This document shows positions 15,657-53,904 of a stretch of 55,143 nt of DNA, one piece after another. Under the pieces are notes generated by a model. The model was not told where the DNA came from. It searched no databases and saw only the letters and a list, made by a program, of their open reading frames with translations. The position numbers were made by a program, and so were the translations under genes. The stretch comes from a virus. Each line of letters starts with the position of its first letter. The first letter of the stretch is position 1. The stretch spans positions 1 through 55,143 of IMG/VR virus record IMGVR_UViG_3300033153_005039; one strand, given 5' to 3'.

Positions 15657-16640
15657 ATGAGTTCAGGACAAAGCACCCCTGGAATCTATGAAGTCCATAT
15701 CGATGCCGTAATGACCAACTTGATGGCACGATTAATGGATGGCGGCGATTACGTCGTCAATCAGGCGTGGCCGATCATAAAGGTGAAGAAAGAGCGTGAT
15801 GCGTATTTCGTCGATAATGATCGTGGTCACCTGAATCCGAAAGGTCCGGACACTTTCCGGGCAGCGGGTATGGTCGCCCAGAACTTTGACTTTCATGTCG
15901 AGACTGATTATTACGAGTGTGTCGAACACGCTCTGAAACGTCCCGTACCGGATCGCGTCCGCGAGAACGCCGACGAACCGCTTAAGGGCGAACTGGATGC
16001 GGTTGAGAAGATGTGTCGGGCAGTCAGCCTGAAATTCGAGATGGAATTTCATGATTTCGCCTTCACCATCGGGAACTACCTCGCAAACAACATCATTGTC
16101 GCGACGGCACCGTGGAGCAACACCGCAACGTCAACACCGGAGCAGGATATCGATCTTGCTAAGGTCGCAATTCTGGAGTCGGCTGGCGTGGTCGCGAACA
16201 CTATCATCATTCCTGAGAACATCTATCGGGACTTGAAAGTCCATCCGGATGTCGTCCAGTACATGGCCGGTTATTCCGCCGCCGAGAATCGGTTACAGAC
16301 AGGTAATCTATTCCCGTACCTGTACGGCTTGAAGGTAATCGTCCCCGGTGTCATCTACGATGCCGCGAATCCGTGTCAGGACGCTGACATCCAGTTACTC
16401 TACGATGAGTGCGATGTTGTCGTGTTCTACAAGGAAGACAATCCCGGCGTGACTACCGCGACATGGGGCGGACAGTTCCGGCATATCCGAAACGGTGAGG
16501 GTCCTTGCCGTGTCAGGAAATGGCGTGATGATCCTGCCGAGGCCAACGTAGTCGAGGTTTCCGTGTTGAATCATCCCAAAGAGATCAACCAGGGAGCCGG
16601 AGCGATTGTCACAGGTCTTTGCACCACAGGAACCAGTTAA
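15657..16640 (+). CDS. Major capsid protein, 327 aa
   Basis: Identified by length, position (after protease, scaffold and decoration genes) and a lambda E/Mu T-like composition: NQAWPIIKVKKERDAYFV, then FDFHVETDYYECVEHAL, then a helical spine and VIVPGVIYDA with a WGGQFRHIRN strand. HK97-type fold expected. Ribosome site AAGGAG. Abundant product. I have no direct homologue in mind, so family placement is by context. Confidence 0.85.
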   Translation: MSSGQSTPGIYEVHIDAVMTNLMARLMDGGDYVVNQAWPIIKVKKERDAYFVDNDRGHLNPKGPDTFRAAGMVAQNFDFHVETDYYECVEHALKRPVPDRVRENADEPLKGELDAVEKMCRAVSLKFEMEFHDFAFTIGNYLANNIIVATAPWSNTATSTPEQDIDLAKVAILESAGVVANTIIIPENIYRDLKVHPDVVQYMAGYSAAENRLQTGNLFPYLYGLKVIVPGVIYDAANPCQDADIQLLYDECDVVVFYKEDNPGVTTATWGGQFRHIRNGEGPCRVRKWRDDPAEANVVEVSVLNHPKEINQGAGAIVTGLCTTGTS

Positions 16641-17235: not shown

Positions 17236-17431
17236 AACGTGTCATACCGGATGTAAGCGGCGACCAAAGTATCTGCATCCGGAAGGTGTCGTTATCGAGA
17301 TGCCACCGGATAATAACCGGGTCAAGACATGGCTTTCGCAGCGACGTATCAAGCAGGTTGCCGATGATACGCCGTTGACATCGCCGAAGGATTACAAGGC
17401 CAAGATGGTCGCATTGATGAGGCGAAAATGA
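17213..17431 (+). CDS. Hypothetical basic protein, 72 aa
   Basis: Starts 23 bases inside the previous gene and ends overlapping the next start, so it is translationally coupled on both sides. The protein is basic and ends ALMRRK. It contains a short beta segment (EGVVIEMP). It lies among head-completion genes; role unknown. Confidence 0.65.
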   Translation: MARYLTIRTCHTGCKRRPKYLHPEGVVIEMPPDNNRVKTWLSQRRIKQVADDTPLTSPKDYKAKMVALMRRK

Positions 17432-18147
17432 CCGTAAGGGATATCGATAATCGCTACACGACCATTGAGCGGCTTGCTCTGAGTCAGGGCGAACGCGATC
17501 TTGCTGATGCCTGCGATCAGACCGGGCAAAGCGAGATCGATGCCGAACTGGTCCAGCAGAAGTTACTCGATATCATCTATATGGCGTCCAGGACGGTCGA
17601 TGGCTACCTTCTGAAGCATATGACCATCCCGATACCGGAGACCATCACAGCGTTGACCGTGGGTACTTCTATCACTATGACAAACGGGAGTCATGCCGTT
17701 GTCGGTGTCGGCACTTTGTTTTTGACTGAACTCACTGAAGGTGACGAGATTTATCTCGTTGATGACGAAAATTACTGGTTTGGGGTCGTCGATTCCATTA
17801 CCGACGACCTCAACCTGGTTTTAAAGTATCAGTACAATGGTTTAACAGTTATTGCGACGATAGCCAACAAGCGACAGATCGTAGTGCCCGGATGGGTAGA
17901 ATTACACGCCCGGAATTATGCCCTGTATGAAGTGTGGCGGTTACGTGGTCGGAAGGATGAGGATAATCCGTGGGCAGAGGACAGGGAGAATTCCCGACTG
18001 GCACTGGTAGATTTTCAAAGGTCAAAGCAGAAGTTCCTTGACGGCACGACTGTTCGCAAGAATAACCCCGTTCAAGGCGAAAAAGAGTATTCGGATCGGG
18101 TAATGACACAGACATCTTTGGGCGATTATACGAGTCCACCTTACTGA
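17428..18147 (+). CDS. Head-tail connector (Mu gp36/DUF1320-like) with inserted beta domain
   Basis: The outer parts match DUF1320: an N-terminal helix bundle with QKLLDIIYMASRTVDGYL and a C-terminal helical arm ending YTSPPY. Between residues about 73 and 147 a beta module is inserted with the signature TMTNGSHAVVGVGTLF, then GDEIYLV and ITDDLNLVLKYQYNG. The same module appears in two other virion proteins. The usual family length is near 140, so the 239 residues here are explained by the insertion. Confidence 0.82.
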   Translation: MTVRDIDNRYTTIERLALSQGERDLADACDQTGQSEIDAELVQQKLLDIIYMASRTVDGYLLKHMTIPIPETITALTVGTSITMTNGSHAVVGVGTLFLTELTEGDEIYLVDDENYWFGVVDSITDDLNLVLKYQYNGLTVIATIANKRQIVVPGWVELHARNYALYEVWRLRGRKDEDNPWAEDRENSRLALVDFQRSKQKFLDGTTVRKNNPVQGEKEYSDRVMTQTSLGDYTSPPY

Positions 18148-18631: not shown

Positions 18632-19342
18632 ATGGCTACACCATCAGAAATACGATCCCCGACTAATTTAATCATTGACAGGTTAACCGACCTGTCCAAT
18701 CAGGTTATCGGTGCTGCACATGGTACTGAGCGCACTGGAAAAATCACGTTAACGAATGGTGCTGCTGCCGTTACCGGAACGGATACTTTATTCGTTGCTC
18801 AAGTCGCTATCGGAAATTATATTGCTATCAAATCAGATCGTCTCGGTTACGCAGGTTTCGGACTTGTCTCCAATGTAGCCAACGATACCACGATCACCAT
18901 TGATGCGAATTATACCGGCCCCACAGAGAGCGGCAATTATGTCGTGCTGACAAAGGATGAATATCTTGAAGCGGTCGAATACCCTTCACTTGTGGACGTT
19001 CGCATCTATGACACGATGAAGGAGTTCGCGCCGAACACGCCGTATATTGAGTGGTGGTTCTATTCTGAGGAAATCACGGATCACGGCGAGAACGCGCTCG
19101 GGTTCGTAGCCTGTACCGTCGCTGTGCATCGTTCAAATTTCCGACTGATGCAGCAGGAGTCGAACGAGATTATTCACGATCTCCTGCGCTGGATTCATAT
19201 GCATCATTCACAAACGCACTGGGATTACATCGAGTACGCAGGGTTTGAATCGCCTACAGTTTACACCGATGAAGATCAGCGAAAAGAAACCCTGGTCACG
19301 ACCTATTTCTTTAACATCGCATTTACAAGGCAGGCATACTAA
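18632..19342 (+). CDS. Tail terminator/completion protein with inserted beta domain, 236 aa
   Basis: Position between the morphogenesis protein and tail tube genes suggests a tail terminator. Residues about 37-107 hold the inserted beta module: LTNGAAAVTGTDTLF, then GNYIAI, then VANDTTITIDANYTG. The rest is an alpha/beta fold with an aromatic-rich core (YIEWWFYSEEITDH). The stop and the next ATG overlap by one base. Confidence 0.7.
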   Translation: MATPSEIRSPTNLIIDRLTDLSNQVIGAAHGTERTGKITLTNGAAAVTGTDTLFVAQVAIGNYIAIKSDRLGYAGFGLVSNVANDTTITIDANYTGPTESGNYVVLTKDEYLEAVEYPSLVDVRIYDTMKEFAPNTPYIEWWFYSEEITDHGENALGFVACTVAVHRSNFRLMQQESNEIIHDLLRWIHMHHSQTHWDYIEYAGFESPTVYTDEDQRKETLVTTYFFNIAFTRQAY

Positions 19343-25869: not shown

Positions 25870-26000
25870 TGACTGGTGAATTAAAAATACAGCTTGAAAT
25901 CCTTGAAGTATTCTGGGTGATCGATGGTGAAATCCTGTGCGTGGTCGTACAGATCGGTGGCAGAATACTATCAAATCTTGTCTATGAAAAGGGAGCGTAA
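25869..26000 (+). CDS. Hypothetical protein, 43 aa
   Basis: ATG overlaps the preceding stop, and its own stop overlaps the next ATG (TAATG). One beta/helix unit (LEILEVFWVIDGEILCVVVQIGG). Small coupling gene of unknown role. Confidence 0.55.
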   Translation: MTGELKIQLEILEVFWVIDGEILCVVVQIGGRILSNLVYEKGA

Positions 26001-28534
26001 TGTTTTCAGCGGCAGTAGATACAATTATTGAATCCGGACGGGTGATTAAGCGGACAATTGCGCTTGAAATCCGTAATGGCTTTGCCGCATGTGATGACGA
26101 GGATTATACCTGGGTCCCGGTCATAGATTTTGATATCGGCGTCACTGAGAACGTGCCCACTATCGGATCGATGAGGGCATCGCTGGCAATAAAAGACTTC
26201 GAGTACTTCGATGAGTTCGACCACGAATATTATGACACGGGCAACGCGGTCATGTTATATGCGGAGGCTCGTCTCCAATGCACGATATATCTCGACACAG
26301 GGACCGGACTTGCCGGAAACGTTACAATAGTTGCCGGAAATCGTACTGTGACGGGTGCCGGAACCGCATTTCTGACTGATTTCGTGCCCGGTGACCAGTT
26401 TTATGTCAATACGAACCCTGAAATATTGCTCATGGTCTGGGAAGTAACCAATAACACGACCATGACCGTGTACGAGATACCCTCTGAGAGCTTCGCAGGT
26501 GCCGCGTACAGCGTGGTAGATGCCGAGCGCGAGTACATCTTCCGTGGGTTCATTACCGACCGTCAGATCGTCGATAAGGCGATTACGGTCGAATGCTATG
26601 ACTGGCTCCAGAAACTACAGACATGCCTGACGAATTTCCAATTAGAGGCTGATTATGTAGCGGGTTCGCCATTTGCCAACGCAGCCTTGCAGGAAGAGCC
26701 CGTACTTGATATGGGTCAGCACATGATTTATGAGATTGATCCTATCGCTCATCCGTGGGCCGAGAATCCCGCAGGATTGAATCGTGTCTTTGTACCCGCA
26801 GCCTTCGAGGTTGAGATTTTCTGGGGCGCGGCATGGCATTTAGTCGCAGCCAGCAGATATCAGGTAATTGAAGTACTTGGGCTGATTGATTTCAAGGAAG
26901 ACATGGGTGCCGGTGCTGTCATGCGTATAGTGTCGGTTTCGGTTTATCAGGAAGGGACGCTGGAACTTGAGGACGTCTACACTGAGGTTCTGACAGATGA
27001 TTCGACAGTTGACTGGCCGGACTGCCTTAACATTGCCTGTGGTTTCGATGATACGACATGGCGCGAAACTCTCACGGGAACATTCACCCTTACCAACGGA
27101 AACATCAATGTTATCGGAATCGGCTGCGCTTTCGATACTGAATTGACTGCCGGTGATCGTATCGCACATAACGCGACACCGACAGATTTCGGTATCGTCG
27201 CTTCAATCGCGGGGCCGAATGCGCTGACGTTGGAATATCCATATCCAGGCGGGACCGCTGGGCCTTTCGCGGGATTCAAATCAACACTGAGATGGTCCGG
27301 TTTATCGATCACGAAAGTTGAATGGCAGTATTGTGATGGAACCGCCGCGAATCTGATGCGATTATTGCAGCGCGACTATGCTGATGTTCGCGGGTATCGA
27401 ATCTGGTACGACCCCATGGATGACGTTGTGAGGGGTGACAGGGTTGAGATAAGAGAAGATGCGGACCCGCGAGTTATGGACCTCGGACTGATCGGTTCAT
27501 TGATGACGGATATCACAAGTGAAAATTTCTACTCTGCTATCGCCGTGACGGGGACACTTGACCGGGCTAAGAATTATGCCACCGACGCCCTCGTTGCGAC
27601 CACGCTTGATGCTGAAATCGCGGGATGGAAACCGGGGACATCAAAGGGCGGCTCGACAGCCTTTGGCAATATGACCTGGAGTGTTACGCCCGGTGCCGGA
27701 AATGCCGAACTTGGATTAAGAGATACCGATATCGAGGTTGCCTACCCTGTTTATTTTACTTTTCCAAATGCCGCCGCCGCCCTTGCTGCCGAATTGGTCT
27801 GGTACGATTACATCACGATTGATCTCGGTGTTGAAATTAATCTTGGCGACATCATAATTTACAACATTAATTGTAAGAATGAAAACAATTACTCACAGGG
27901 TGTCTGGCTACAGTACTCAACTGATGGCGTGAACTTCTACGATATCCTGAACTGCTATCAAGTGGAATTCTCCGAAGATGAACGCAAGACTATCGATGCG
28001 AGTCAGTACACGGCGCGGCATATCAAGATAATGTGCCGTCCATTTAAATGGCCGCAAGGGACGGCATGGAGCGGTACGAGAACTCGCACAATGGGACTCA
28101 GGGAAATAATCATCTTTGGTTCCGAGGATATCTGCGAGATGGTCTGTGTGCAGAATACAGATGTCGGTGGTGGTCGAACAGTCGGTGGCGTTTTCATCAG
28201 TGATTATTATCCTGAGATCATAAAGAAGCTTTGCAATATCGGGCATCAGGTTTTGATCGATGATTCCGGCCTTGTCCTCAGTAATGAGGAAGCAATCGAC
28301 CGTGGCTATCTCCTGCTCAATGAATACATACGCCTTTACAGGCAGATAACATGGGACGGTGCTTTCGATCCCCGAATACAGATTTACCGCACGGTTCGCA
28401 CTCAGGACGTTTACCGCGAGGTTGATACCGATGTGCTCCGTTATATTTGCGAGAATTACAGCATCAATAACGAATCGACAATGATCTCCGGAAGGGAGTA
28501 CGGGGGCGGTGTACTTGCACCGAATTACTCATGA
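26000..28534 (+). CDS. Tail tip/receptor-region protein with F5/8-type and inserted beta domains, 844 aa
   Basis: Large tail protein. Two copies of the inserted beta module lie at residues about 100-173 (GNRTVTGAGTAFLTDF) and 359-430 (LTNGNINVIGIGCAF). Residues about 545-708 read as a discoidin (F5/8 type C) domain: YITIDLGVEINLGDIIIYN, then YSTDGVNFYDIL, then ARHIKIMCR and LREIIIFG. Such domains bind sugars, so the protein probably contacts the cell surface glycan. The C-terminus resembles a tail hub end. Gene order supports the tail tip role. Confidence 0.75.
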   Translation: MFSAAVDTIIESGRVIKRTIALEIRNGFAACDDEDYTWVPVIDFDIGVTENVPTIGSMRASLAIKDFEYFDEFDHEYYDTGNAVMLYAEARLQCTIYLDTGTGLAGNVTIVAGNRTVTGAGTAFLTDFVPGDQFYVNTNPEILLMVWEVTNNTTMTVYEIPSESFAGAAYSVVDAEREYIFRGFITDRQIVDKAITVECYDWLQKLQTCLTNFQLEADYVAGSPFANAALQEEPVLDMGQHMIYEIDPIAHPWAENPAGLNRVFVPAAFEVEIFWGAAWHLVAASRYQVIEVLGLIDFKEDMGAGAVMRIVSVSVYQEGTLELEDVYTEVLTDDSTVDWPDCLNIACGFDDTTWRETLTGTFTLTNGNINVIGIGCAFDTELTAGDRIAHNATPTDFGIVASIAGPNALTLEYPYPGGTAGPFAGFKSTLRWSGLSITKVEWQYCDGTAANLMRLLQRDYADVRGYRIWYDPMDDVVRGDRVEIREDADPRVMDLGLIGSLMTDITSENFYSAIAVTGTLDRAKNYATDALVATTLDAEIAGWKPGTSKGGSTAFGNMTWSVTPGAGNAELGLRDTDIEVAYPVYFTFPNAAAALAAELVWYDYITIDLGVEINLGDIIIYNINCKNENNYSQGVWLQYSTDGVNFYDILNCYQVEFSEDERKTIDASQYTARHIKIMCRPFKWPQGTAWSGTRTRTMGLREIIIFGSEDICEMVCVQNTDVGGGRTVGGVFISDYYPEIIKKLCNIGHQVLIDDSGLVLSNEEAIDRGYLLLNEYIRLYRQITWDGAFDPRIQIYRTVRTQDVYREVDTDVLRYICENYSINNESTMISGREYGGGVLAPNYS

Positions 28535-30147
28535 CTTATCACGACAGATCATATAAGAACAGGCCACAGAATGAACCGCGTGAAATCGGACGTATCCATC
28601 GTGATCTTGCAGCGCAGGACGCGATGAGTATAAGTAAGATTTCCAGTAACCTTCACGCCATACCGACAGCACCGATAACAACAAGTGAAGGTGGCGATTC
28701 GGCCTGTTGCTGTGATCGAGTCGTGTATGTGAGCAAGGACGGCTCCGGTGATTTCGATGATATCCAGCAGGCCATTGACGATATCGCCGCTTACGAAACA
28801 CCATCGGCTACTGCGCCTTGGGTGATTTATATTTGTCCCGGCGAGTATGTCGGTGACGTTATCATGGCCGATTACGTGTCGCTGGTCGGCATCGGTACGA
28901 AGGAACATGGGGCGCGGATAATCGGCGTGGCGAATCCGGCTGTGATTACTTTTCCCGACCATGACACTACAATTGAAAATTTATATATTGAAACTGAAAT
29001 CGATCTCGGAGCAGCCACCTCAGCGGCGGTACATGTCCGGGGTTCTACGCACTGGATAATAAATTGCTCTGTAAATACGAATGCAATTAACGGGGCAGGT
29101 GGCGCATGTATTCATATCGACGAAGATGTCATAGTCCATATGGGAGAAAACATAATTAAATATGTCGGCACCGGGACAGATGCCGCAGCCAGAAGTCATA
29201 TTGGTGTCAATTTTGGATTCACTAACTCGAAGGTCTACTTTACCAACAATGAAATGAGCATTATCTTCGATGGTGATAACGATAACGGCTATCTGTTCCA
29301 TGAAGAGCCCGGAGTCGATCTCACGGTTTATGTCGAGAACAATATATTTAATATCGAAAGCACTACGTTAATCGGAGCCCCATCGATTTATAATTGGGAA
29401 GCGAATGGATTTGGCTATAGATATTCTGTTAATAATCACTGGATACAAAAATACAACGGCATTGGCGGCGCGGATACGGCTTTCAACTTAACAGGTGGGG
29501 CAAAGCTTGAATTCTTTAGCTCTCATAATAAATTGCAATATGACAGAGGCATAACCGGAATACTGGCAGCATGGGCTGGCGCGGAAACATTCTATTCCAT
29601 CTTCGACGATCTCGATAATTATACAGCTACTATCCCCGGTGCTCTCGCTGTTTTCAAATATGTAATATCGGGTGATGCGAATTACGGTACTCCCGGCAAC
29701 CTGCATATCAGCAATGCCTATACAAGCGATGACCCGCCGCGCTCCCGTGGATACCGTAACGGTAATCAGCTAATCGGCACAGGTGCCCTGACCATCGTTC
29801 AGACGAATGCTGAAACTTATGATTCATCGAACATTCATAATACTGGAACTTACAGAACGATCCCGAACGTGCCCGGTTACTATTCCGTTGAAGCGCAGAT
29901 AACGTATCAATCGGGTGTGGATACAAAGAAATACTATTGCGATATTCTGAAAAATGGCGGTCTGGCAGCGAGAACCATAGTCCGCACCGGTTCAGCAGGC
30001 GCGATAGCCGCCCGATGCTCTGATATAATCTTTTGCAATGGCTCGACAGACTTTATAGAATTACGAGCGTATCATGACTCCGGTGCGGGCAAGAATTTAT
30101 CAGGTAATACTTATTCCACTTTCATCTGTGTTCATAAATTATCATAG
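28531..30147 (+). CDS. Tail spike with pectin-lyase-like beta helix, 538 aa
   Basis: Residues 65-360 have the pectate lyase-like pattern VSKDGSGDFDDIQQAIDDI, YICPGEYVGDVIMADYVSLVG abbreviated, then NLYIE, NCSV and NNEM repeats of a right-handed parallel beta helix. The C-terminal 140 residues (after SRGYRNGNQ) look like a trimeric TNF/C1q-type beta-sandwich that may fold or cap the trimer. An N-terminal tail would attach it to the tip. It may bind or cut a host polysaccharide; no catalytic residues can be assigned with confidence. Confidence 0.8.
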   Translation: MTYHDRSYKNRPQNEPREIGRIHRDLAAQDAMSISKISSNLHAIPTAPITTSEGGDSACCCDRVVYVSKDGSGDFDDIQQAIDDIAAYETPSATAPWVIYICPGEYVGDVIMADYVSLVGIGTKEHGARIIGVANPAVITFPDHDTTIENLYIETEIDLGAATSAAVHVRGSTHWIINCSVNTNAINGAGGACIHIDEDVIVHMGENIIKYVGTGTDAAARSHIGVNFGFTNSKVYFTNNEMSIIFDGDNDNGYLFHEEPGVDLTVYVENNIFNIESTTLIGAPSIYNWEANGFGYRYSVNNHWIQKYNGIGGADTAFNLTGGAKLEFFSSHNKLQYDRGITGILAAWAGAETFYSIFDDLDNYTATIPGALAVFKYVISGDANYGTPGNLHISNAYTSDDPPRSRGYRNGNQLIGTGALTIVQTNAETYDSSNIHNTGTYRTIPNVPGYYSVEAQITYQSGVDTKKYYCDILKNGGLAARTIVRTGSAGAIAARCSDIIFCNGSTDFIELRAYHDSGAGKNLSGNTYSTFICVHKLS

Positions 30148-32289: not shown

Positions 32290-32532
32290 ATGACTGGCAA
32301 GAAACCAAATGGAATCAGGGGATGGATCGCGATAGCGACATTCATTCTCATGGTATGCGGCATGTTCATCTGGGTAGGATTCTGGAAAGCCGAGGCTGCC
32401 GATAACACCGCGACAAATATCGATCAGGAATCTCGTATTAGAACTATTGAGGAAGCTACGATCAGAACTGATGAACGCCTTACTAACATCGAGGAAGATA
32501 TCGATGAAATATTAGAGGAGGTGAAGAGATGA
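32290..32532 (+). CDS. Membrane-anchored coiled-coil protein, XhlA/holin-associated type, 80 aa
   Basis: One transmembrane segment at residues 11-30 (WIAIATFILMVCGMFIWVGF), then a coiled coil (RIRTIEEATIRTDERLTNIEEDI). This layout, with TM and coil in a small protein beside another membrane protein, is typical of XhlA-like partners of holins, though XhlA normally has the coil first. ATGA-type overlap with the next gene. Confidence 0.65.
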   Translation: MTGKKPNGIRGWIAIATFILMVCGMFIWVGFWKAEAADNTATNIDQESRIRTIEEATIRTDERLTNIEEDIDEILEEVKR

Positions 32533-32714
32533 AACCCACAGTTATAACGACTGAATTTATTCTTACCGCAATCTTTCTAGTCGGTGTAATCGTGATCGCC
32601 ATAGCGCGTCCGGAATCTCTTGAGGAATTCAAGAATATGTTCTATACCGCTGGCGGCCTGATCGGTGCTTACAACATCAGCCGTGGCATCGCCAAGAACG
32701 GTAATGGTAAATGA
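32529..32714 (+). CDS. Putative holin, 61 aa
   Basis: N-terminal transmembrane helix (FILTAIFLVGVIVIAIA) and a second weakly hydrophobic segment (FYTAGGLIGAYNI), short basic C-terminus. Length and order (tail genes, TM/coil protein, then this) fit a small holin that would release the lysozyme at the end of infection. The lysozyme itself is on the other strand. Confidence 0.6.
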   Translation: MKPTVITTEFILTAIFLVGVIVIAIARPESLEEFKNMFYTAGGLIGAYNISRGIAKNGNGK

Positions 32715-33295
32715 GCTTCGTAATAATATCTGCCTTCACTATTGGAACGCCTTATGAGTTTGAGGTCAGAAAGCTTCACGACTCAATCAGGCGTTTTGAA
32801 CTGCCTCATAAAATCTATCCCATGCAGGATCATGGTGACTGGTTTACCAATTGTCATCACATCATAGAAGTTATCGAGCAGGGATTAAAGGAATTCCCCA
32901 ATAAAAATATTGTCTGGCTGGATGCCGATGCTGTGATTGTTAAGAATCCTGTACTATTCAGCACCTTCTCTCGCGATCTCGGAGCTCACCGAAGGAAGAA
33001 CAAAAAGGATGCGGGTTATCACTGGAATACGGGCACGATCTTCTATCGCAATAATGAAAAGGTGAGAGAGAGAATACATCTGATGGCTCTGAATATGAGG
33101 GCGTATTATTGTGGTGAAGCGGAAATTTATTATGATGTCGATTGGATGCTTGCGAACGCTGATAAATTAGGTCTTGATCTGGGAGAACTGCCAACCGCAT
33201 ACAGTATAATCTTTGATACCAAACAGCCGGAAGAGATTAATGTCGAGCCGGTCATAATCCATAACCAGGCATCGCGACGATTAAAGAATGTCTGA
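32711..33295 (+). CDS. GT-A-like glycosyltransferase/nucleotide-sugar transferase, 194 aa
   Basis: GT-A style fold: N-terminal VIISAFTIGTPYEFEVRKL, then a WLDADAVIVKNP motif (DxD, which normally binds metal and the nucleotide sugar), then WNTGTIFYRNN. First gene of a four-gene cassette joined by 4-8 base overlaps. The acceptor may be a host surface glycan, a virion protein or a sugar-lipid. Basic chemistry is supported by the motif; substrate is unknown. Confidence 0.72.
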   Translation: MSFVIISAFTIGTPYEFEVRKLHDSIRRFELPHKIYPMQDHGDWFTNCHHIIEVIEQGLKEFPNKNIVWLDADAVIVKNPVLFSTFSRDLGAHRRKNKKDAGYHWNTGTIFYRNNEKVRERIHLMALNMRAYYCGEAEIYYDVDWMLANADKLGLDLGELPTAYSIIFDTKQPEEINVEPVIIHNQASRRLKNV

Positions 33296-34049
33296 GAAAA
33301 AACATACTACCAAATGGAAAAGACGCCGTTGTTCGATCTGTGATGAATCGGAACGACTCAAGCTTCTTCACCATCGGACCCTGCAATTAAAGGTGAATGA
33401 TGGCTGGTTTATATTCGAGCAATACGATACTGTCTGTAATGGGTGCGGCTTTGTATTTAATGGCAGGGTCCCGGATGAATCATTCATCAGGGAATATTAT
33501 GAGAAATCGGTAATCAGAGTCAAGGCGGATTACGATTCTGAGAGCAGATTGAAATTAATCAAAGAGCTTATACCTTCGGGTTCAAAAGTAATCGAGTTCG
33601 GTTCCGGTCGCGGTGAGTTTGTAGATGATTTGAACAATGCCGGATACATCGCCGATGGTCTCGATTATATCGATGACGCTGGGAGTGATTTGATATACGA
33701 TGCCGCCATTGCATATTACGTTCTGGAGCACGTAATTAATCCAGGTGTATTTATAAAAAAGATGAAATCATTCGTCGTGGACGGTGGCTTTATAATTGTT
33801 GAGGTCCCGGATTTCCACAACTATACCGAGCATTCCCTTTATCATGAACACTTGAACCATTTCACCGTTCAGCATTTGACCACCTTGTTTACAATGAATG
33901 ATTTGCAGGTATTGAAAGTGTTAACAGGCCACAGTCGAGACTTCGGGTTCGCCATTGTCGGTATAAATAATTATAGCAATATCCTTGATAAGAAATATCG
34001 GAAAACGATGTTTAGAATAAAGGAATACTGGACTGCCAAGAATGGCTGA
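33288..34049 (+). CDS. SAM-dependent methyltransferase with N-terminal zinc domain, 253 aa
   Basis: Residues 10-60 form a zinc-binding unit (CSIC...CNGCGFVF). The class I methyltransferase motif VIEFGSGRGEFVDDL is at about 98-112, and HEHLNHFTVQHL toward the end. This arrangement is that of sugar C-/O-methyltransferases of the NovU/TylC3 type. With the flanking glycosyltransferase-like genes it suggests methylation of a nucleotide sugar or glycan. Confidence 0.78.
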   Translation: MSEKKHTTKWKRRRCSICDESERLKLLHHRTLQLKVNDGWFIFEQYDTVCNGCGFVFNGRVPDESFIREYYEKSVIRVKADYDSESRLKLIKELIPSGSKVIEFGSGRGEFVDDLNNAGYIADGLDYIDDAGSDLIYDAAIAYYVLEHVINPGVFIKKMKSFVVDGGFIIVEVPDFHNYTEHSLYHEHLNHFTVQHLTTLFTMNDLQVLKVLTGHSRDFGFAIVGINNYSNILDKKYRKTMFRIKEYWTAKNG

Positions 34050-34692
34050 TGATATTTTAAAATCCAATTTCATACCCGCTAAGACAGCGGTTATTCTAGC
34101 TCCGGGTCCCAATGGTCGCGAGCATTGGGATAAAATTCTATCAGGTACATTCGTTATTGCCGTGAATCAGGCAATAGAAATCAAAGAAGTAAATAAGACG
34201 ATCTGGCTTGCCAGTGATGGAACGCTGCCTGAAAAGAAATGGTTCGACAAGGCAGCCAATGAACTCATCGCAAGCAATTATGACCTGCACGATCTCGACA
34301 AACCCACACCTGTTTTCGATTCCGGTAAGTTGTTGAGATCATATCCTGATGTAAAATATACTTTCGAGCACGGCGGATCGTTATCGAAACAACCGTGGGG
34401 GTGCTTCCCCGGTGTTCTCCGTGGTGGTGCTACCGTGGCAGCTCAGGCGATGCAGCTCGCGTATCATTTGGGCTGTAAAAAAATAATCCTGTGCGGGGTT
34501 GACATGATGGGGAAGTATTATTTTAATGGGGGAATGATCGATAATATCCAGGTCCCCGATAATTCCGCAGGCAAGAAATGGCTCGCGCTGAACTGGATGC
34601 AGATACTCGTTAAGTGGTTTAAAGAAAACGGTACAGAAGTCAATTCAATAAGCAAGACAGCGATAAATGTTGCGAAAGTAAGGAGCGTATGA
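34042..34692 (+). CDS. DUF115/MptE-like protein A, 216 aa
   Basis: N-terminal KTAVILAPGPNGREHW, then FVIAVNQAI, then a central RGGATVAAQAMQLAYHLGCKKIILCGVDM abbreviated to GATVAAQAMQLAY and IILCGVDM. These match the Rossmann-like DUF115/6-hydroxymethylpterin pyrophosphokinase-like proteins that also occur in glycan biosynthesis clusters. Paralogue of the next gene. Confidence 0.68.
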   Translation: MADDILKSNFIPAKTAVILAPGPNGREHWDKILSGTFVIAVNQAIEIKEVNKTIWLASDGTLPEKKWFDKAANELIASNYDLHDLDKPTPVFDSGKLLRSYPDVKYTFEHGGSLSKQPWGCFPGVLRGGATVAAQAMQLAYHLGCKKIILCGVDMMGKYYFNGGMIDNIQVPDNSAGKKWLALNWMQILVKWFKENGTEVNSISKTAINVAKVRSV

Positions 34693-35489
34693 TGCCACAG
34701 TTAACCAAGATGTTTCCCGGAATAAAAAAAGGTAAGTACGGATTCGGTAAGAAACAGCATCAGGACCGCCATAAGCAGCGCGACATCCTCAAGCTGAAAC
34801 ACAAGATCACCCTACCCCTTGAAGATGGAAAGCGAACGTGCTACGTGGTTTCTCCGGGCCTGTACGGCCGCGACCATTACGGAGAGATACCAGAGGATGC
34901 ATTCGTTATCATCGTCAACTACGCGATAATGATCCCGGCATGGTGTCGCGAGAACGGTATCAGGGAATTGAAACCCGCGATATGGCTTTGCGCTGACAGG
35001 AATCTGGCAACGAAACCGGAATGCAAATGGTTCGTTGATGAACTCGATAAGATTATTGCAGCCGGGTACTCGCTCGAAATGGAAAACATTAAGGCAGGTG
35101 GCCCGGTCGTGCCCGTATTCGATAGCGGATTTCTTGGTGGTATCTTCCCAGTAGTCAGGACCATATTCAGTCATGGAAGATCGATGCGCCGTAAGCAGCC
35201 GCAGCCGATACCGAATCGATTACGCGCCGGATTAACGATAAGCTGTCAGGCAATGCAGTTGGCTTACTGGCTCGGAGCGGAGACTATTAAAATTTGCGGG
35301 ATAGATATGTGGTCAGATGATTACTTCGATGGGCACAAGACGAATGTGAGCGCGAGGCGTAACCGGGCATGGCCCCAGTGCACGCACTTCGATCAGTTCA
35401 TTCGATGGCTTAAAGCAAATGGGATACGCCCGGTGAGCATCAGCAGGACGGCGTTAAAGATCGAGCAGCCGCCAGCGGTGCCGGATTAA
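34692..35489 (+). CDS. DUF115/MptE-like protein B, 265 aa
   Basis: Paralogue of the gene before: PGLYGRDHY, then FVIIVNYAIMI, then RAGLTISCQAMQLAYWLGAE and IKICGIDMW. It has an extra basic N-terminus. ATG 34692 is preferred over the adjacent ATG because AAGGAG is six bases away. The pair probably acts on the same or a related sugar phosphate, which is inference. It is the last rightward gene before the convergent operon. Confidence 0.68.
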   Translation: MPQLTKMFPGIKKGKYGFGKKQHQDRHKQRDILKLKHKITLPLEDGKRTCYVVSPGLYGRDHYGEIPEDAFVIIVNYAIMIPAWCRENGIRELKPAIWLCADRNLATKPECKWFVDELDKIIAAGYSLEMENIKAGGPVVPVFDSGFLGGIFPVVRTIFSHGRSMRRKQPQPIPNRLRAGLTISCQAMQLAYWLGAETIKICGIDMWSDDYFDGHKTNVSARRNRAWPQCTHFDQFIRWLKANGIRPVSISRTALKIEQPPAVPD

Positions 35490-35501: not shown

Positions 35502-35741
35502 TCATGCATGAAAAAAACTTGGCTTACTTTCGGTATGCTTCATCCTCTCCGCATACTCTGATCGGTTCTTGATTTCGCCCAGGAATGTATGTACTGATTC
35601 AAGTTCGGGGTGCGCCTTGAAAGTGGCGGCTATCGTGTTCGGTGTATCCATTCCAGTACCCGCGAGTTTGCCATTCCTGTTATAATATTTCGCCCCGGCC
35701 TGGTGAATGATTTCTTGCTTTAACTTTTTCATCGTGAACAT
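35502..35741 (-). CDS. Hypothetical protein, 79 aa
   Basis: Last gene of the leftward operon. GGAGGAAATAGA precedes the ATG. Basic, helical, with NRNGKLAGTGMDTPNTI and HTFLGEIKNRSEYAERM. No family recognised. Only 12 bases separate it from the end of the rightward sugar cassette, with no clear terminator between the convergent operons. Confidence 0.7.
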   Translation of the reverse strand: MFTMKKLKQEIIHQAGAKYYNRNGKLAGTGMDTPNTIAATFKAHPELESVHTFLGEIKNRSEYAERMKHTESKPSFFHA

Positions 35742-44680: not shown

Positions 44681-45979
44681 TTATGAGCTTCCTTCCGTGT
44701 CGCTTTGAACTTCCTTAGCGGTCCCTTTAAAATCATCTTCCCCATCCCGGACGGTCCGCTTTTCTGCCTCTGCCGTGAGCCAGTCCACGATCCGGCTAGC
44801 TTTCGACATCGATACTGTCTCAGCATCGGATAATTGGTTCAATCCGAAAGTTTTCTTGAATCGCCCCTTAAATGCCGCTCTTGTCTTGTTATCCATCCCC
44901 TTCATCACATCGTTAGCCAGTTCCTTTATCTCCCCGTACATGCCATCTGGCAGCCTCTGAGGGGATTCTGGCGAGGGAGAGTCAACACCTTTGAGATCAG
45001 ATATATCTGTCCGCGCCTGTACGTGCTCCGGTAATGAGCGGGGACCATCTACAAGATCGTCGTAGTGGTCATCCCGTGGTCCCGGTAATGCTGGCCTGAC
45101 TAACCCGTCCGGGAGCACGTACATGATATCCCCGGCTGTTATCTCGCGGCGTTCCATGCGCTCTTTAAGGGTATCGAAAGCATGTGGGAAGTGGATCATC
45201 GGCGAGTAGAATTCAGTTCGAATCATCTTGCCTGACTGATCCGGGTACATCCCGTGCTGTTTCTTTAGAATGAATTCGAGATGCAAGGGCAGGTATCCGC
45301 CGTGCGGTGCCATGAAATGAGTCAGTGTTTTCACCGCGTCCTGCACATTGTTGATCGTGTTGATACTCCCGGACTGAAACATGTAGGCGTCGAACCCGGC
45401 GCATTTCGGCAGCCATAGATACATCGTCACTTTCTCGCCGCATTGCGGACGGTTCGGGTCGATGGTCCGAGACTTGCCAGCGATGGTGACATTACCGCCT
45501 GCTCTTAGGGGACATCGTTCGGGGTCACATTCTATTTCTTTACCGCCCCTGACAGCAATATTTCGATTGATGAATTCACCGTTACGGGCATCGGGCTCGA
45601 ATCTGTTCTTGCAGTACAGTTTCCCGCCCTGATAGCAGACGTATCCGATCTCGACACAATCTATTGGGGCAGACTTGAAAGTGAATTGCAACTTGATTGA
45701 TTTCCCGTAAGCCTCGAATCCCGCTGATGGATTCCCGTCGTCAAAGAAAACAAAGTGATTCGTCTTGGTCGGGAACGTCGCGGAGAAATCCTTACCTCCG
45801 CAGTTCGGGCAGACATTCTCGAAAGCCCTGATAGCGTATCCTTTCCTTCCAGCGTTCTTGCACGTCCAGCAATTCTTAACCTGGTAGCCAAGTTTTATCT
45901 TGCCCATTCTCGGTGCTCTGGGATTATCGAGCCTGTTCATTCGTGCCCGGATGCGTCCTTGTGAAACGTCATTCGTCAT
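44681..45979 (-). CDS. gp3/recombination directionality factor-like protein, 432 aa
   Basis: Zinc knuckle near the start (CWTC...CPNC), then a large domain with VCYQGGKLYCKNRFEPDARNG, CPLRAGG and CGEKVTMYLWLPKCAGFDAYMFQSGSINTI, given here in parts. This resembles the gp3/RDF-like family of phiC31-type phages, though similar proteins are common in phages without integrase. No integrase is seen here, so a role in recombination or metal-dependent processing is more likely than excision. C-terminal 130 residues are helical and charged. Confidence 0.65.
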   Translation of the reverse strand: MTNDVSQGRIRARMNRLDNPRAPRMGKIKLGYQVKNCWTCKNAGRKGYAIRAFENVCPNCGGKDFSATFPTKTNHFVFFDDGNPSAGFEAYGKSIKLQFTFKSAPIDCVEIGYVCYQGGKLYCKNRFEPDARNGEFINRNIAVRGGKEIECDPERCPLRAGGNVTIAGKSRTIDPNRPQCGEKVTMYLWLPKCAGFDAYMFQSGSINTINNVQDAVKTLTHFMAPHGGYLPLHLEFILKKQHGMYPDQSGKMIRTEFYSPMIHFPHAFDTLKERMERREITAGDIMYVLPDGLVRPALPGPRDDHYDDLVDGPRSLPEHVQARTDISDLKGVDSPSPESPQRLPDGMYGEIKELANDVMKGMDNKTRAAFKGRFKKTFGLNQLSDAETVSMSKASRIVDWLTAEAEKRTVRDGEDDFKGTAKEVQSDTEGSS

Positions 45980-47084
45980 CCTCTTTAACCTCCCCGTCAT
46001 ATTTTACATCGCAGCATTTCAAATCATCACAGTGGTCTATCAGGTTACAAAATCTACACGGGCTTTGAAACCCTGTCCGGTTCTGTGTCTGTGGCCAGAT
46101 ACCGGACTCCTCACATGCCTTGATCTGCATGATTGTGATTTGCAACTGGCTTTCGAGAAACTTGATTTGATTCTCGTTCGGAACCTCGATGATAAACGCC
46201 GGGTTACGTCTGGGAGCCAGTGGAAGTTTCCAGACATCATCAATGCGGACTTTCGTTTTTAATTCAATTTCTTTTGTAGAGGTTTCGGCACCTTCCGGCG
46301 CTGTCTCACCTTTGTCCGGCCTGTACCGTGTCCACTTCAAGGCATTCGCCGGGGGAACGCATGACGGGATGTGATACCAGATCATCTTTGACGGGTACAC
46401 GCCGAACTTCTCCGCTCTCAGGCCACAACCTACTGATGTGCATCGATAGATATCCGGGCCGTCCTCGACAGCCTGTTCAAGTTCCCATTCATGGATGTGG
46501 TATTTGGGATCATCGACGGGGATGTACGGCATGTCACCGATAACGATGTAGCCGTATTTTAAAGCGTAACCCTGAATCAAACACTGGTAATCAAATTCGA
46601 GGTCGCGCCGGATGTTCTTATCTATCATTCCCGTCTTGAGTTCACGGACAATCAATCCCTTCTCGGGTCCCGCAATGATTTGATCGAACCGTCCCCGGAG
46701 CCATTCTATTTTATCACCTGGCATCGGGAGCGGGACATAAAACCATCGCTCAGATGACCGGATATCGATGTCCTTGTTCCAGTGCCAGTACCACTCAACC
46801 ATCGTCTTGGCTTTGAGAATACGCATGTCTCGACCAGTTGCGCCCCAATCAATAGGTGCATCGGTCATGGCTTCCTCGTAATCGAAAGCACTCTCTACTT
46901 CACTATCAAGATCGTATTCAGGATGCTCATGCAGGGTTTTAATCACGGCATGAACAGCCTTACCGATAATCCCGGCAGCGGACTCATGCGATGGTGGGTA
47001 CTGCTTACGGTTCCGGGCATATTTCTCTTTACGGCTACAGGAATTAAAACGGTTGAAGCCTGAGTATGAACGGTACTTAGTCAT
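45969..47084 (-). CDS. Cas4/RecB-like PD-(D/E)xK exonuclease, 371 aa
   Basis: Motifs: H45 in GKAVHAV, D134 in RGRFDQIIAG, E148-L-K150 in IVRELKTGM (the E-x-K of the nuclease), and a C-terminal CRFCNLIDHC which with Cys16 would bind a 4Fe-4S cluster as in Cas4/AddB. It probably processes DNA ends for phage recombination. AGGAGG before the ATG; overlaps the gp3-like gene, so the two are probably expressed together. Confidence 0.85.
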   Translation of the reverse strand: MTKYRSYSGFNRFNSCSRKEKYARNRKQYPPSHESAAGIIGKAVHAVIKTLHEHPEYDLDSEVESAFDYEEAMTDAPIDWGATGRDMRILKAKTMVEWYWHWNKDIDIRSSERWFYVPLPMPGDKIEWLRGRFDQIIAGPEKGLIVRELKTGMIDKNIRRDLEFDYQCLIQGYALKYGYIVIGDMPYIPVDDPKYHIHEWELEQAVEDGPDIYRCTSVGCGLRAEKFGVYPSKMIWYHIPSCVPPANALKWTRYRPDKGETAPEGAETSTKEIELKTKVRIDDVWKLPLAPRRNPAFIIEVPNENQIKFLESQLQITIMQIKACEESGIWPQTQNRTGFQSPCRFCNLIDHCDDLKCCDVKYDGEVKEDDE

Positions 47085-52336: not shown

Positions 52337-53134
52337 ATGAACACAGACTTCAGAATCACAACAGACGCGCTAGACCACCCGAAACTGGTAAAACTTAAAC
52401 GTATGACAGGCGATGCCGGGATCATCAGCCTCATGCGGTTGTGGGGATTCACAGCCCGATACCATCCGCGCGGGGATCTGAATGATATGACCCCGGACGA
52501 TATCGAGATATCGGCGAAGTGGGAAGGTCCTGCAGGTGAGTTTTTCAACGCGATCCTGAACCTGAAATTGCTCGATGAATGCTTAGGGCAGTACTCAGTG
52601 CATGACTGGGAGGAACACAATTCATACGCCTATCATGCCCCGGAACGAACAGCTAAGGCTAAGAATGCAGCAAGGATACGATGGGCATCCCAAGAGGATG
52701 CTAGTAGCAATGCTGCGGGCAATGCGGATGGCAATGCCCCTTCTCCTAATCCTAATCCTGTTCCTGATCCTTCTCCCCCTCCTAATCCCTCTCCAAAGAA
52801 AACGCGGACGAAACCTAAGACAAAACAGCCCTCAGATAACAAGACCCGACAGATCACGGACTGTTATCAAGAGCTGTACATCAAGAGGTTCAACAAGAAA
52901 CCGATCTGGGGAGCAGTGGAAGGGAAACGAATTAAGCGTTTACTTACTGACTTCGACGGTGACGCTGACAGGATATGCACGGCATTTGAGAACGCATTCA
53001 AGTCAAAAGAAAAGTTCATGAGCGATAACGTGGGCTCCTTCATGACCTTGACGGCTAAGGCGGTAATCACTAAGGCCGATACTATAACGGGCGTTAAGGG
53101 GCCACGTATGGGCGGGAGGCCGTATTCTGAATGA
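52337..53134 (+). CDS. Replisome organiser/initiator-like protein, 265 aa
   Basis: N-terminal winged-helix-type domain (DHPKLVKLKRMTGDAG, then LMRLWGFTARYHP, then ISAKWEG) as in DnaD-like and O-type phage initiators. A Pro-rich repetitive linker (residues 135-155, PNPNPVPDPSPPPN) and a C-terminal helical domain (YQELYIKRFNKKPIWG). Located immediately upstream of the PP-loop enzyme and DnaB, as initiators are. The linker's DNA is a pyrimidine-rich repeat that may hold the replication origin. Confidence 0.78.
   Translation: MNTDFRITTDALDHPKLVKLKRMTGDAGIISLMRLWGFTARYHPRGDLNDMTPDDIEISAKWEGPAGEFFNAILNLKLLDECLGQYSVHDWEEHNSYAYHAPERTAKAKNAARIRWASQEDASSNAAGNADGNAPSPNPNPVPDPSPPPNPSPKKTRTKPKTKQPSDNKTRQITDCYQELYIKRFNKKPIWGAVEGKRIKRLLTDFDGDADRICTAFENAFKSKEKFMSDNVGSFMTLTAKAVITKADTITGVKGPRMGGRPYSE
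52738..52797 (+). repeat. Pyrimidine-rich tandem repeat inside the replication gene (possible origin)
   Basis: About ten diverged copies of a 6-base unit CCTNAT/CCTTCT/CCCTCT code for the Pro-rich linker. The strand has almost no guanine. Lambda O and related initiators carry their iterons inside the gene, so this may be the origin, though codon bias for Pro/Asn could also create the pattern. Confidence 0.45.
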
Positions 53135-53904
53135 CTGGCTTAATCGAAAAGCAATTATTCGGAACTGTTGACAAGGTGGCGGATGCCATCAAATTGCTTC
53201 GCGCACTTGAACCGAATGATGGTTACTATCTCGCATTCAGCGGCGGTAAAGATTCTGTAACTATCAAGGCGCTGGCTGATATGGCGGGTGTTAAATACGA
53301 TGCCCATTACAGTGTGACGACAATTGATCCGCCCGAACTCGTGAGGTTTATCAGGAATAATCACACTGATGTACACTTTGAAAAGCCGCTCCATCCATAT
53401 TTTCAAGAATTCAAAACTAACGGAATGCCTTTGCGGACAACGCGATGGTGCTGTAAATTACTAAAAGAACGGGCCGGGAAGGGCAGAACCGTTTTGACTG
53501 GCGTGAGAGCAGATGAAAGCATAAAGCGGAAAGGGCGCAAGAAGGTAGAGAATTGCTTGCGTGGTAGTGGCAAGCGTTACGTTCATGTGATATTTGATTG
53601 GACCAATAACGATGTGTGGGATTTTATCAAGCAGGAAAGTTTGCCGTATTGCTCACTTTACAATGAGGGTTACAAGAGAATCGGATGCATCGCATGTCCT
53701 ATGAAGTCGGCAAAATTGCGACAGCAAGAACTTGAACGCTGGCCCAAATATAAAAGAGCTTTCAGAAATGCCTGCCTGAAATATTACAATAAGGGATTGC
53801 CATCAGTAAAGAGGTGGGAGAGCGGAGAGGCAATGTGGCAATGGTGGATTAGCGATGAGTCTTTACCGCAGTTCGATGATGATGAATTGGGATTATTCGC
53901 ATGA
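53131..53904 (+). CDS. PAPS-reductase/PP-loop family enzyme, 257 aa
   Basis: PP-loop SGGKDS at 37-42 binds ATP or a related nucleotide; RTTRWCCKLLKE and IGCIACPM cysteines in the second half are typical of the CysH/DndC-like group and may bind an iron-sulfur cluster. Phages carry such genes near replication genes, and DNA phosphorothioation or other sulfur chemistry has been proposed for relatives. The neighbouring methyltransferases make a DNA-modification role plausible. No Dnd partner genes are seen. ATGA overlap with DnaB. Confidence 0.85.
   Translation: MTGLIEKQLFGTVDKVADAIKLLRALEPNDGYYLAFSGGKDSVTIKALADMAGVKYDAHYSVTTIDPPELVRFIRNNHTDVHFEKPLHPYFQEFKTNGMPLRTTRWCCKLLKERAGKGRTVLTGVRADESIKRKGRKKVENCLRGSGKRYVHVIFDWTNNDVWDFIKQESLPYCSLYNEGYKRIGCIACPMKSAKLRQQELERWPKYKRAFRNACLKYYNKGLPSVKRWESGEAMWQWWISDESLPQFDDDELGLFA

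Follow-up and report, generated by a model that had tools for sequence, protein, structure and literature searches.

What an uncultured tailed phage would gain from a compact set of putative sugar-modifying genes closing its late block is the question raised by a locus in IMG/VR record IMGVR_UViG_3300033153_005039, the whole 55,143-nucleotide stretch of which was analysed here (referred to below as the window). Virion glycosylation is documented in few phage systems, and most phage glycosyltransferase (GT) genes have no known acceptor. The first-pass annotation had proposed a four-gene cassette (32711-35489) that could act either on a virion protein or on the host surface. We therefore considered the gene layout, the predicted folds, the occurrence of the same families in other genomes and the possible acceptors.

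Organization of the locus

The cassette is real: four plus-strand ORFs overlap one another and each has a family match (Table 1), an arrangement for which chance is excluded. The joins of 4-8 bases described earlier were borne out, as the overlaps, counted from the 61-aa ORF preceding Orf1 through Orf4, are 4, 8, 8 and 4 bases. The placement at the end of the late operon likewise holds, with the terminase-to-tail block upstream on the plus strand and a convergent gene (35502-35741) next after Orf4; late expression would follow from this operon position. Among the structural genes, the MCP is encoded at 15657-16640, a tail fibre at 26000-28534 and a spike-like protein at 28531-30147. A promoter scan near the cassette revealed no excess (14 sites vs 12.0 in shuffles), nor did a terminator scan exceed its shuffles. 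A hydropathy scan of Orf1-Orf4 gave 19-residue means no higher than 1.42 and hence no hydrophobic segment.

The description of the preceding genes as holins is unsupported. Both ORFs have one hydrophobic segment apiece; the 80-aa ORF has only weak matches, to the Rz-like spanin phrog_7686 (E 0.011) and to XhlA (E 0.022), and the 61-aa ORF, for which a lysis role is possible, matched nothing in PHROGs or Pfam.

Table 1. Features of the cassette and of the two ORFs before it (positions in the window).
Feature	Positions	Strand	Length (aa)	Basis and remarks
ORF with an N-terminal hydrophobic segment and polar C-terminus	32290-32532	+	80	Rz/XhlA-like at best
ORF with one hydrophobic segment	32529-32714	+	61	Hydropathy; overlaps Orf1 by 4 bases
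Orf1, predicted GT-A-type glycosyltransferase	32711-33295	+	194	PF03407, predicted fold, DxD at residues 71-73, C-terminal His184
Orf2, putative class I SAM-dependent methyltransferase	33288-34049	+	253	PF13489, CxxC pairs at residues 15 and 50, YHEH at 185
Orf3, MptE-like/DUF115 protein, predicted sialyltransferase/Maf-type fold	34042-34692	+	216	PF01973, structural model
Orf4, Orf3 paralogue with a basic N-terminal extension	34689-35489	+	266	Identity to Orf3, PF01973 match below cut-off, clade

Families and predicted folds of the four proteins

The Pfam match of Orf1 to PF03407 (Nucleotid_trans) is marginal (E 1.1e-4, 22.7 bits with a cut-off of 22). Its high-confidence structural model (pLDDT 94) has a GT-A fold, with Z of at least 13.7 throughout the best 50 rows. 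The best PDB match is domain A064R-D1 of PBCV-1 (2p73; Z 16.3, 180 aligned residues, rmsd 3.2); crystal forms of this capsid glycosyltransferase make up the top three VIA chains (Z 16.1-16.3, the next rows being at 14.6), and it is also ranked first by Foldseek. The likeness to the capsid enzyme is at the level of the fold (12% identity) and extends likewise to glycogenin and blood-group GTs. Among Orf1 relatives, D71 and D73 are conserved in 39 of 39 rows and H184, which we take to be the metal-site His, in 38 of 39. Together, model and motif identify Orf1 as a predicted GT-A glycosyltransferase, in line with the GT-A-like DxD enzyme proposed earlier.

The PBCV-1 system is also instructive in its composition. 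According to PMC9614988, A064R combines two rhamnosyltransferase activities with that of a methyltransferase, and the A064R/A061L activities build and methylate one capsid-protein glycan; the domain resembling Orf1 is likewise a small metal-dependent GT-A domain of ~200 aa with DxD. On the other hand, PBCV-1 is a eukaryotic virus, its domains form parts of a single 638-aa protein expressed early, and the description given there mentions no DUF115/GT42-like partner.

Orf2 has a sole Pfam match above cut-off, PF13489 (Methyltransf_23; E 1.7e-12). The first two PDB rows were designed armadillo repeats and were treated as spurious; D-mycarose 3-C-methyltransferase (4rv9) was matched with E 0.0027, its YHEHL being aligned. 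The YHEH segment, presumably the catalytic one of sugar C-methyltransferases of the TcaB9/mycarose type, is common to Orf2 and these enzymes, as are the N-terminal Cys pairs; the two CxxC pairs of Orf2 would be compatible with a zinc site, in agreement with the methyltransferase with a zinc domain proposed previously. In contrast to these three-domain proteins of ~410 aa (426 for 4rv9), Orf2 is only 253 aa long and has no Pfam match to their C-terminal domain.

The view of Orf3 and Orf4 as paralogous DUF115/MptE-like proteins was confirmed: Orf3 matches PF01973 above the cut-off of 34.6 bits (E 3.2e-10, 40.5 bits), and Orf4 falls below it (E 0.0029, 17.8 bits), yet shares 41% identity with Orf3 across 199 residues and belongs to the same subfamily clade (support 100/99). 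The Orf3 model (pLDDT 92.4) has its best fold match in the flagellin glycosyltransferase Maf (5mu5; Z 14.4), aligning only to Maf residues 260-509, followed by the GT42 fold of Cst-I (2p2v; Z 12.3, 183 aligned, rmsd 3.9), the Cst-I/CstII chains together spanning Z 10.8-12.3. An archaeal pterin pyrophosphokinase, HPPK of M. jannaschii, is nearly as close (Z 11.8). A profile of 39 phage DUF115 sequences compared with PDB chains ranked CstII (E 1e-14) ahead of Maf (E 1e-4) and HPPK (E 0.0077). The earlier fold prediction thus stands in that both confident models resemble glycosyltransferases, with the DUF115 reading corrected to a Maf/sialyltransferase fold; the cassette would then probably consist of three glycosyltransferases and one methyltransferase.

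Some features set this DUF115 subfamily apart. Its own 8-row profile yielded nothing significant against sialyltransferases of known structure (E 0.33 for Cst-I, with HPPK at E 0.87), so that a fold is shared with GT42 enzymes and significant sequence similarity is not. Its members have Y/F/D at the H-x-H position of most phage relatives, and their chemistry may therefore differ. Conserved residues in Orf3 are N42, D59 and D154. The 39-row alignment has a gap at the region of the GT42 catalytic His, whose location in the aligned sialyltransferase we assumed. As to architecture, Maf has PF01973 as its central domain, the Pfam family of Orf3, between extra N- and C-terminal domains, whereas Orf3 and Orf4 are single-domain proteins. 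According to PMC11339370, flagellin is O-glycosylated by Maf, with CMP-activated Neu5Ac or Kdo as the donor; no flagellin acceptor is known for the cassette.

Recurrence of the GT-A/DUF115 pair

A GT-profile scan for Orf1 relatives recovered 43 viral loci. A DUF115 ORF was present in the same locus in 32 of them, and 18 of the 43 encode both domains as a single fused ORF, with the GT-A domain first in some and the DUF115 domain first in others; in 11 a DUF115 gene was absent from the fetched stretch. As an independent control, Pfam's PF01973 profile was run over whole records: 19 of its 45 matches lay within 2 kb of the GT, where 4.2 would be expected (p 5e-5 by permutation, the lowest value attainable with 20,000 trials); this count leaves out sister records L021, L025, L026 and L041, and with them becomes 22 of 51 versus 4.6 expected. 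A PF01973 match fell within the fused frame in 15 of 19 fused loci (none for L018, L025, L030 and L012). The 36-locus set omits L012, L013, L018, L021, L024, L026, L041, L048 and the window (sisters or non-scan entries), as well as L046, which has no GT ORF of its own under the ORF caller used. The DUF115 ORF of L007 is missing from the counts, probably because, where ORFs overlap, this caller retains the longer.

At a threshold of E 1e-3, none of the fetched loci contained an Orf2 relative. The cassette as a whole has thus only partly survived a survey of relatives: the GT-A/DUF115 pair recurs, the methyltransferase does not, and separation of the four genes, proposed as grounds for refuting the cassette, applies in part to the four-gene set, given the missing methyltransferase and the 11 of 43 loci with no DUF115 gene in the stretch fetched. 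The conserved unit is the glycosyltransferase pair rather than the exact set of four, and its recurrent pairing and fusion in phages is new here. Together with the glycosyltransferase folds, this linkage by neighbourhood and fusion upholds the sugar-transfer assignment made previously, and the fused pair provides a sequence handle for spotting such modules in uncultured phages. Single-sequence searches of viral_contigs with the four proteins and the portal retrieved one remote GT locus only, which gave no means of following the cassette through close sister phages. Within the phages collection, Orf1 matched one record, Orf3 five and Orf2 three (0 of 3 covering 80% of Orf2), with no match for Orf4.

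The gene neighbourhoods contain glycan genes. For example, some Orf1-relative loci encode synthesis genes for CMP-nonulosonate or CMP-Kdo: beside the pair lie NeuB and a cytidylyltransferase in L011, whereas L012 has DAHP_synth_1 (KdsA-like), CTP_transf_3 (KdsB-like) and a GT29 domain there. In lists limited to 25 families for each side, Glycos_transf_2 occurred in 8 of 142 ORFs near the GT versus 1 of 67 far from it, and GDP_Man_Dehyd in 5 of 142 versus none, an enrichment that is suggestive only. Portal, head, tail-fibre and endolysin families were also found among GT neighbours, and in L014 the GT locus is directly upstream of TerL.

A comparable arrangement exists in the Caulobacter phage CcrColossus, whose gp126, annotated as "alpha-2,3-sialyltransferase-like", is of the DUF115 type. 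Its region gp123-gp137, ending a rightward block, runs from tail genes through the DUF115-type gene and other GTs to lysis genes (endolysin, holin, spanins). It differs in that the GT genes precede the lysis genes, PF03407 does not match the "nucleotide-diphospho-sugar transferase" of CcrColossus, and no methyltransferase is annotated in its late region. Since this phage is grown on a laboratory Caulobacter, the similarly placed gene makes the acceptor question testable in an isolate.

Possible acceptors and alternative readings

The retention of the GT-A and DUF115 families, adjacent or fused, by many unrelated phages makes it probable that phages carry their own kit for sugar-coating something, most likely the virus particle. 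For the cassette itself we propose a late, soluble glycan-decoration kit with a virion protein as the most likely acceptor, a reading to which we give an even chance. Orf1 would be a metal-dependent enzyme using an NDP-sugar donor, Orf3 and Orf4 two Maf/GT42-like transferases probably using a CMP-activated sugar, and Orf2 would methylate one of the sugars, all acting in the cytoplasm during virion assembly; the activities, donors, methylation of the same glycan and virion acceptor are what we infer. CTP_transf_3 (PF02348, CMP-sugar synthetase) had 0 matches in this genome; own CMP-sugar synthesis was therefore rejected, and the donor would need to come from the host (in a Gram-negative one, CMP-Kdo may serve). 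If a CMP-sugar is the donor, phages would be using the chemistry that bacteria apply to flagella and LOS.

Precedents exist in mycobacteriophages: according to PMC11256854 and PMC12619734, Che8, Rita and Maravista have phage-encoded glycosyltransferases and glycans on capsid (and tail-tube) subunits, the capsids of Che8 and Rita being reported as glycan-bearing in the former. Their hosts are actinobacterial. A broader version of our proposal, which we offer only tentatively, is a portable GT-A plus Maf/GT42-like (DUF115) module, often fused, that in many lineages attaches nonulosonates or Kdo in O-linkage to virion proteins while these are in the cytoplasm. The sugars would be drawn from the CMP-sugar pool of the host or, where the phage is larger, supplied by its own synthesis genes; virions would then show the host's own surface sugars.

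The main rival, which we regard as rather unlikely, is a late alteration of the host surface glycan (LPS/LOS core or capsule) that keeps progeny from sticking to the lysing cell, debris and infected neighbours. It owes this rank to Psychrobacter chromosomes, which keep both families in one locus (9 of 12 genome loci); in L057, the one locus examined, the pair lies among glycosyltransferases of the surface-glycan type and adjoins GT4, GT8 and PMT_2-type genes. LOS is modified from the cytoplasmic side by soluble enzymes, both of the GT42 family and of the GT-A kind exemplified by LgtC, and some phage loci with the pair contain GT2, GT25 and nucleotide-sugar epimerase genes. On the other hand, the lack of promoter excess and the coupling to upstream late ORFs suggest expression only shortly before lysis. 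Neither PF00589 nor PF00239 (integrase/recombinase) is matched in this genome, which gives no sign of lysogenic conversion, and this variant was rejected. A serotype conversion of the GtrABC kind does not fit either, since the cluster has no membrane flippase or glucosyltransferase and PHROGs showed no Gtr family.

A second alternative, that the DUF115 proteins bind nucleotides as kinases or binders like MptE/HPPK and that late accessory genes have come together here by chance, appears improbable. The Pfam family name and the HPPK similarities above speak for it; however, Maf and Cst-I/CstII are better matches, the genes next to them in other loci encode GTs, sugar epimerases and CMP-sugar enzymes, and fusion with a GT-A domain has occurred repeatedly in both orders.

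Glycosylation of hypermodified DNA bases, rejected as a first choice, is very improbable: DNA-hypermodifying viral GTs do exist (judging by the title of Pyle et al. 2024, cited in PMC12619734) and this genome encodes DNA methyltransferases in places other than the late block, but PF00303 had 0 matches in a search for a thymidylate-synthase-family (dCMP/dUMP hydroxymethylase) gene, the cassette lies in the late block rather than the replication region, and DUF115 is tied to CMP-sugar genes in L011.

Apart from the cassette, and despite the absence of an integrase/recombinase match, a Gp3-like, RDF-like domain is encoded at 44684-46000.

Layout of the cassette at the end of the late block

The late block on the + strand encodes terminase, protease, major capsid protein, tape measure and a portal that also contains a minor-head domain. 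It ends in four overlapping ORFs, Orf1-Orf4, beyond which a convergent gene lies 12 bases further on. Orf1 belongs to a GT-A glycosyltransferase family (PF03407; GT), Orf2 to PF13489 and Orf3 to the MptE-like family PF01973 (DUF115), with Orf4 a paralogue of Orf3 (41% identity). The two small ORFs preceding the cassette had been called holins in the first-pass annotation, a label that their family searches did not support. Compared with 22 hand-picked late genes longer than 400 bp (mean GC 0.497, sd 0.024), Orf1-Orf3 are AT-richer but Orf4 is not; the cassette may thus combine genes of different ages. A 37-base direct repeat at the ends of the 55,143-base record makes it likely that this is a whole genome assembled as a circle. 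Profile searches of the window gave no match to a CMP-sugar synthetase and found no thymidylate-synthase-type base modifier. A Gp3-like domain resembling a recombination directionality factor (PF18897) is present despite the lack of a match in the window to the integrase/resolvase profiles PF00589 and PF00239.

Features of the viral record
Feature	Coordinates	Strand	Remarks
Direct terminal repeat	1-37 and 55107-55143
ParB_N domain fused to N6_N4 DNA methyltransferase	3006-4172
Portal with minor-head/MuF-like domain	10213-12528	+	771 aa; phrog_113 and phrog_220
Late protein	17428-18147		tail-fibre-type domain (phrog_1980/17834/28473)
Late protein	18632-19342		same domain
Tail fibre	26000-28534		844 aa; after late-block head/tail genes; same domain, twice; weak F5/8 C match
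Protein with weak pectinesterase-type match	28531-30147		after tail fibre
Small ORFs	32290-32532 and 32529-32714
Cassette	32711-35489	+
Orf1	32711-33295	+	GC 0.427
Orf2	33288-34049	+	GC 0.413
Orf3	34042-34692	+	GC 0.453
Orf4	34689-35489	+	GC 0.514
Gp3-like domain	44681-46000
PAPS-reductase-like gene	53131-53904		adjoins replication initiation gene

Predicted activities of the cassette proteins

AlphaFold2 models of Orf1 and Orf3, built on alignments of 39 sequences, were both confident (pLDDT 94.0 and 92.4, respectively). The three best VIA matches of Orf1 are the three crystal entries of A064R domain 1 from the chlorovirus PBCV-1 (2p73, 2p72 and 2p6w; Z 16.1-16.3, ~180 of 194 residues, rmsd 3.1-3.3), followed by glycogenin, blood-group and GT6-type enzymes at Z ~14.5; Foldseek also ranked 2p72 first. 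According to PMC9614988, this domain is a beta-L-rhamnosyltransferase building the glycan of the PBCV-1 major capsid protein, and the A064R protein also contains a methyltransferase and a further rhamnosyltransferase. Both aspartates of the GT family DxD motif (D71 and D73) are present in 39/39 rows, and the C-terminal His184 in 38/39.

Orf2 carries CxxC motifs at residues 15 and 50 and a YHEH at 185 that aligns to the YHEHL of D-mycarose 3-C-methyltransferase (E 0.0027), an enzyme whose C-terminal part it lacks.

The best fold match of Orf3 is Magnetospirillum Maf (5mu5; Z 14.4, 183 aligned, rmsd 3.3), ahead of the Cst-I/CstII sialyltransferases (Z 10.8-12.3), archaeal HPPK (11.8) and human sialyltransferases (~9). 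Maf, as described in PMC11339370, transfers nonulosonates from CMP to flagellin, in one case Neu5Ac and Kdo. A profile of the broad phage DUF115 family matches CstII (E 1e-14), Maf (1e-4) and HPPK (0.0077), but that of the window's own subfamily reaches no better than E 0.33 with Cst-I; the prediction that Orf3 and Orf4 are glycosyltransferases thus rests on fold, kinship with the broader family and context. N42 is present in 39/39 rows of the DUF115 alignment, D59 in 37/39 and D154 in 35/39. At the site where many relatives have H-x-H (histidine in 27/39 and 20/39 at its two positions), Orf3 has Y-F-N and Orf4 Y-F-D.

Pairing of GT and DUF115 genes

A GT profile from alignment A4 (the window, the viral loci L003 and L011, and the GT domain of viral locus L012) was scanned over viral contigs and yielded 43 loci. 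By our own profiles, a GT ORF is found in 42 of the 43, and 32 of the 43 loci contain a DUF115 ORF. Both domains occur, non-overlapping, in one ORF in 18 loci (19 counting L012), with DUF115 first in most and GT first in L022, L026, L027, L030 and L034. In L003, L014, L015 and L054 the two genes are separate but overlap or are at most 13 bases apart. As an independent control, Pfam PF01973 (E 0.01 or better) matched 34 of the 41 whole records of L014-L054. Once four sister records had been set aside, 19 of 45 matches lay no more than 2 kb from the GT, where uniform placement would predict 4.2 (p 5e-5, the lowest value that 20,000 permutations can give). Counting against pairing, 11 of the 43 loci show no DUF115, and the two genes are sometimes kilobases apart. 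The conserved unit, judged from these sequence comparisons, is the GT/DUF115 pair. Ten DUF115-GT fusions have near-identical locus coordinates (L020, L021, L023-L025, L028, L031, L041, L042 and L051).

The window proteins and those of phage L014 form their own subfamily, with GT clade support of 98/99 and a DUF115 clade (100/99; some rows on long branches) comprising Orf3, Orf4, three L014 copies, L004 and two L005 copies. The gene order in L014 is DUF115, GT, an unknown gene, methyltransferase (PF13578), DUF115, two GNAT acetyltransferases, DUF115 and terminase, so that, going by gene order in the window versus L014, the cassette can occupy either end of the late block. Besides the cassette families, the two genomes share a few genes that are not part of the late block, but their terminase, portal and capsid proteins showed no similarity to each other at E 1e-3, which argues that the cassette moves between unrelated virions. 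DUF115 genes also surround terminase- and portal-like genes (assigned by eye) in L005, and in CcrColossus a DUF115-type "sialyltransferase-like" gene comes after the tail genes, with further GT genes and the lysis genes downstream of it.

Among 142 GT-neighbour ORFs at 36 loci, the Pfam families listed included GT2 (8), methyltransferases (7), nucleotide-sugar dehydratase/epimerase (5) and GT25 (4), and PHROGs included portal (4), head morphogenesis (4), tail fibre (3) and endolysin (3). HSP20 family matches numbered 5 among the neighbours scanned. L011 additionally carries NeuB and cytidylyltransferase, and L012 KdsA-like, KdsB-like and GT29 genes.

Virion protein or host surface as the possible acceptor

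Nine of the 12 GT loci in cellular genomes are on Psychrobacter chromosomes, and each of these nine also contains a DUF115 gene. In L057, the one Psychrobacter locus examined, the pair lies among GT4, GT8 and PMT_2 genes, which ties it to glycans and makes a real alternative of the view that the cassette alters a host surface glycan late in infection. The simplest interpretation is that the cassette glycosylates a virion protein, with the acceptor, the donors and the order of steps all inferred. Membrane segments are absent from all four cassette proteins, and the genes are coupled to the late block; we therefore propose that Orf1-Orf4 would be active in the cytoplasm while virions assemble. 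NDP- and CMP-donors would supply a virion protein with one or two sugars, one of which would be methylated.

Phage virion glycosylation as such is already known (PMC11256854 and PMC12619734). The literature searched, which takes in a minority of subscription papers, yielded no account of GT-A and DUF115 genes paired as a phage module; papers on DUF115 and phage, judged by title and abstract, included none on phage glycosylation, and searches for PF01973, MAF_flag10 or MptE-like with bacteriophage found none. In the huge phage of L012 (LR756500.1, 7230-9740), an 836-aa protein carries a DUF115-like, then a GT-A and then a GT4-type domain and adjoins the GT29-type and KdsA/KdsB-like genes; L018 has the same locus coordinates.
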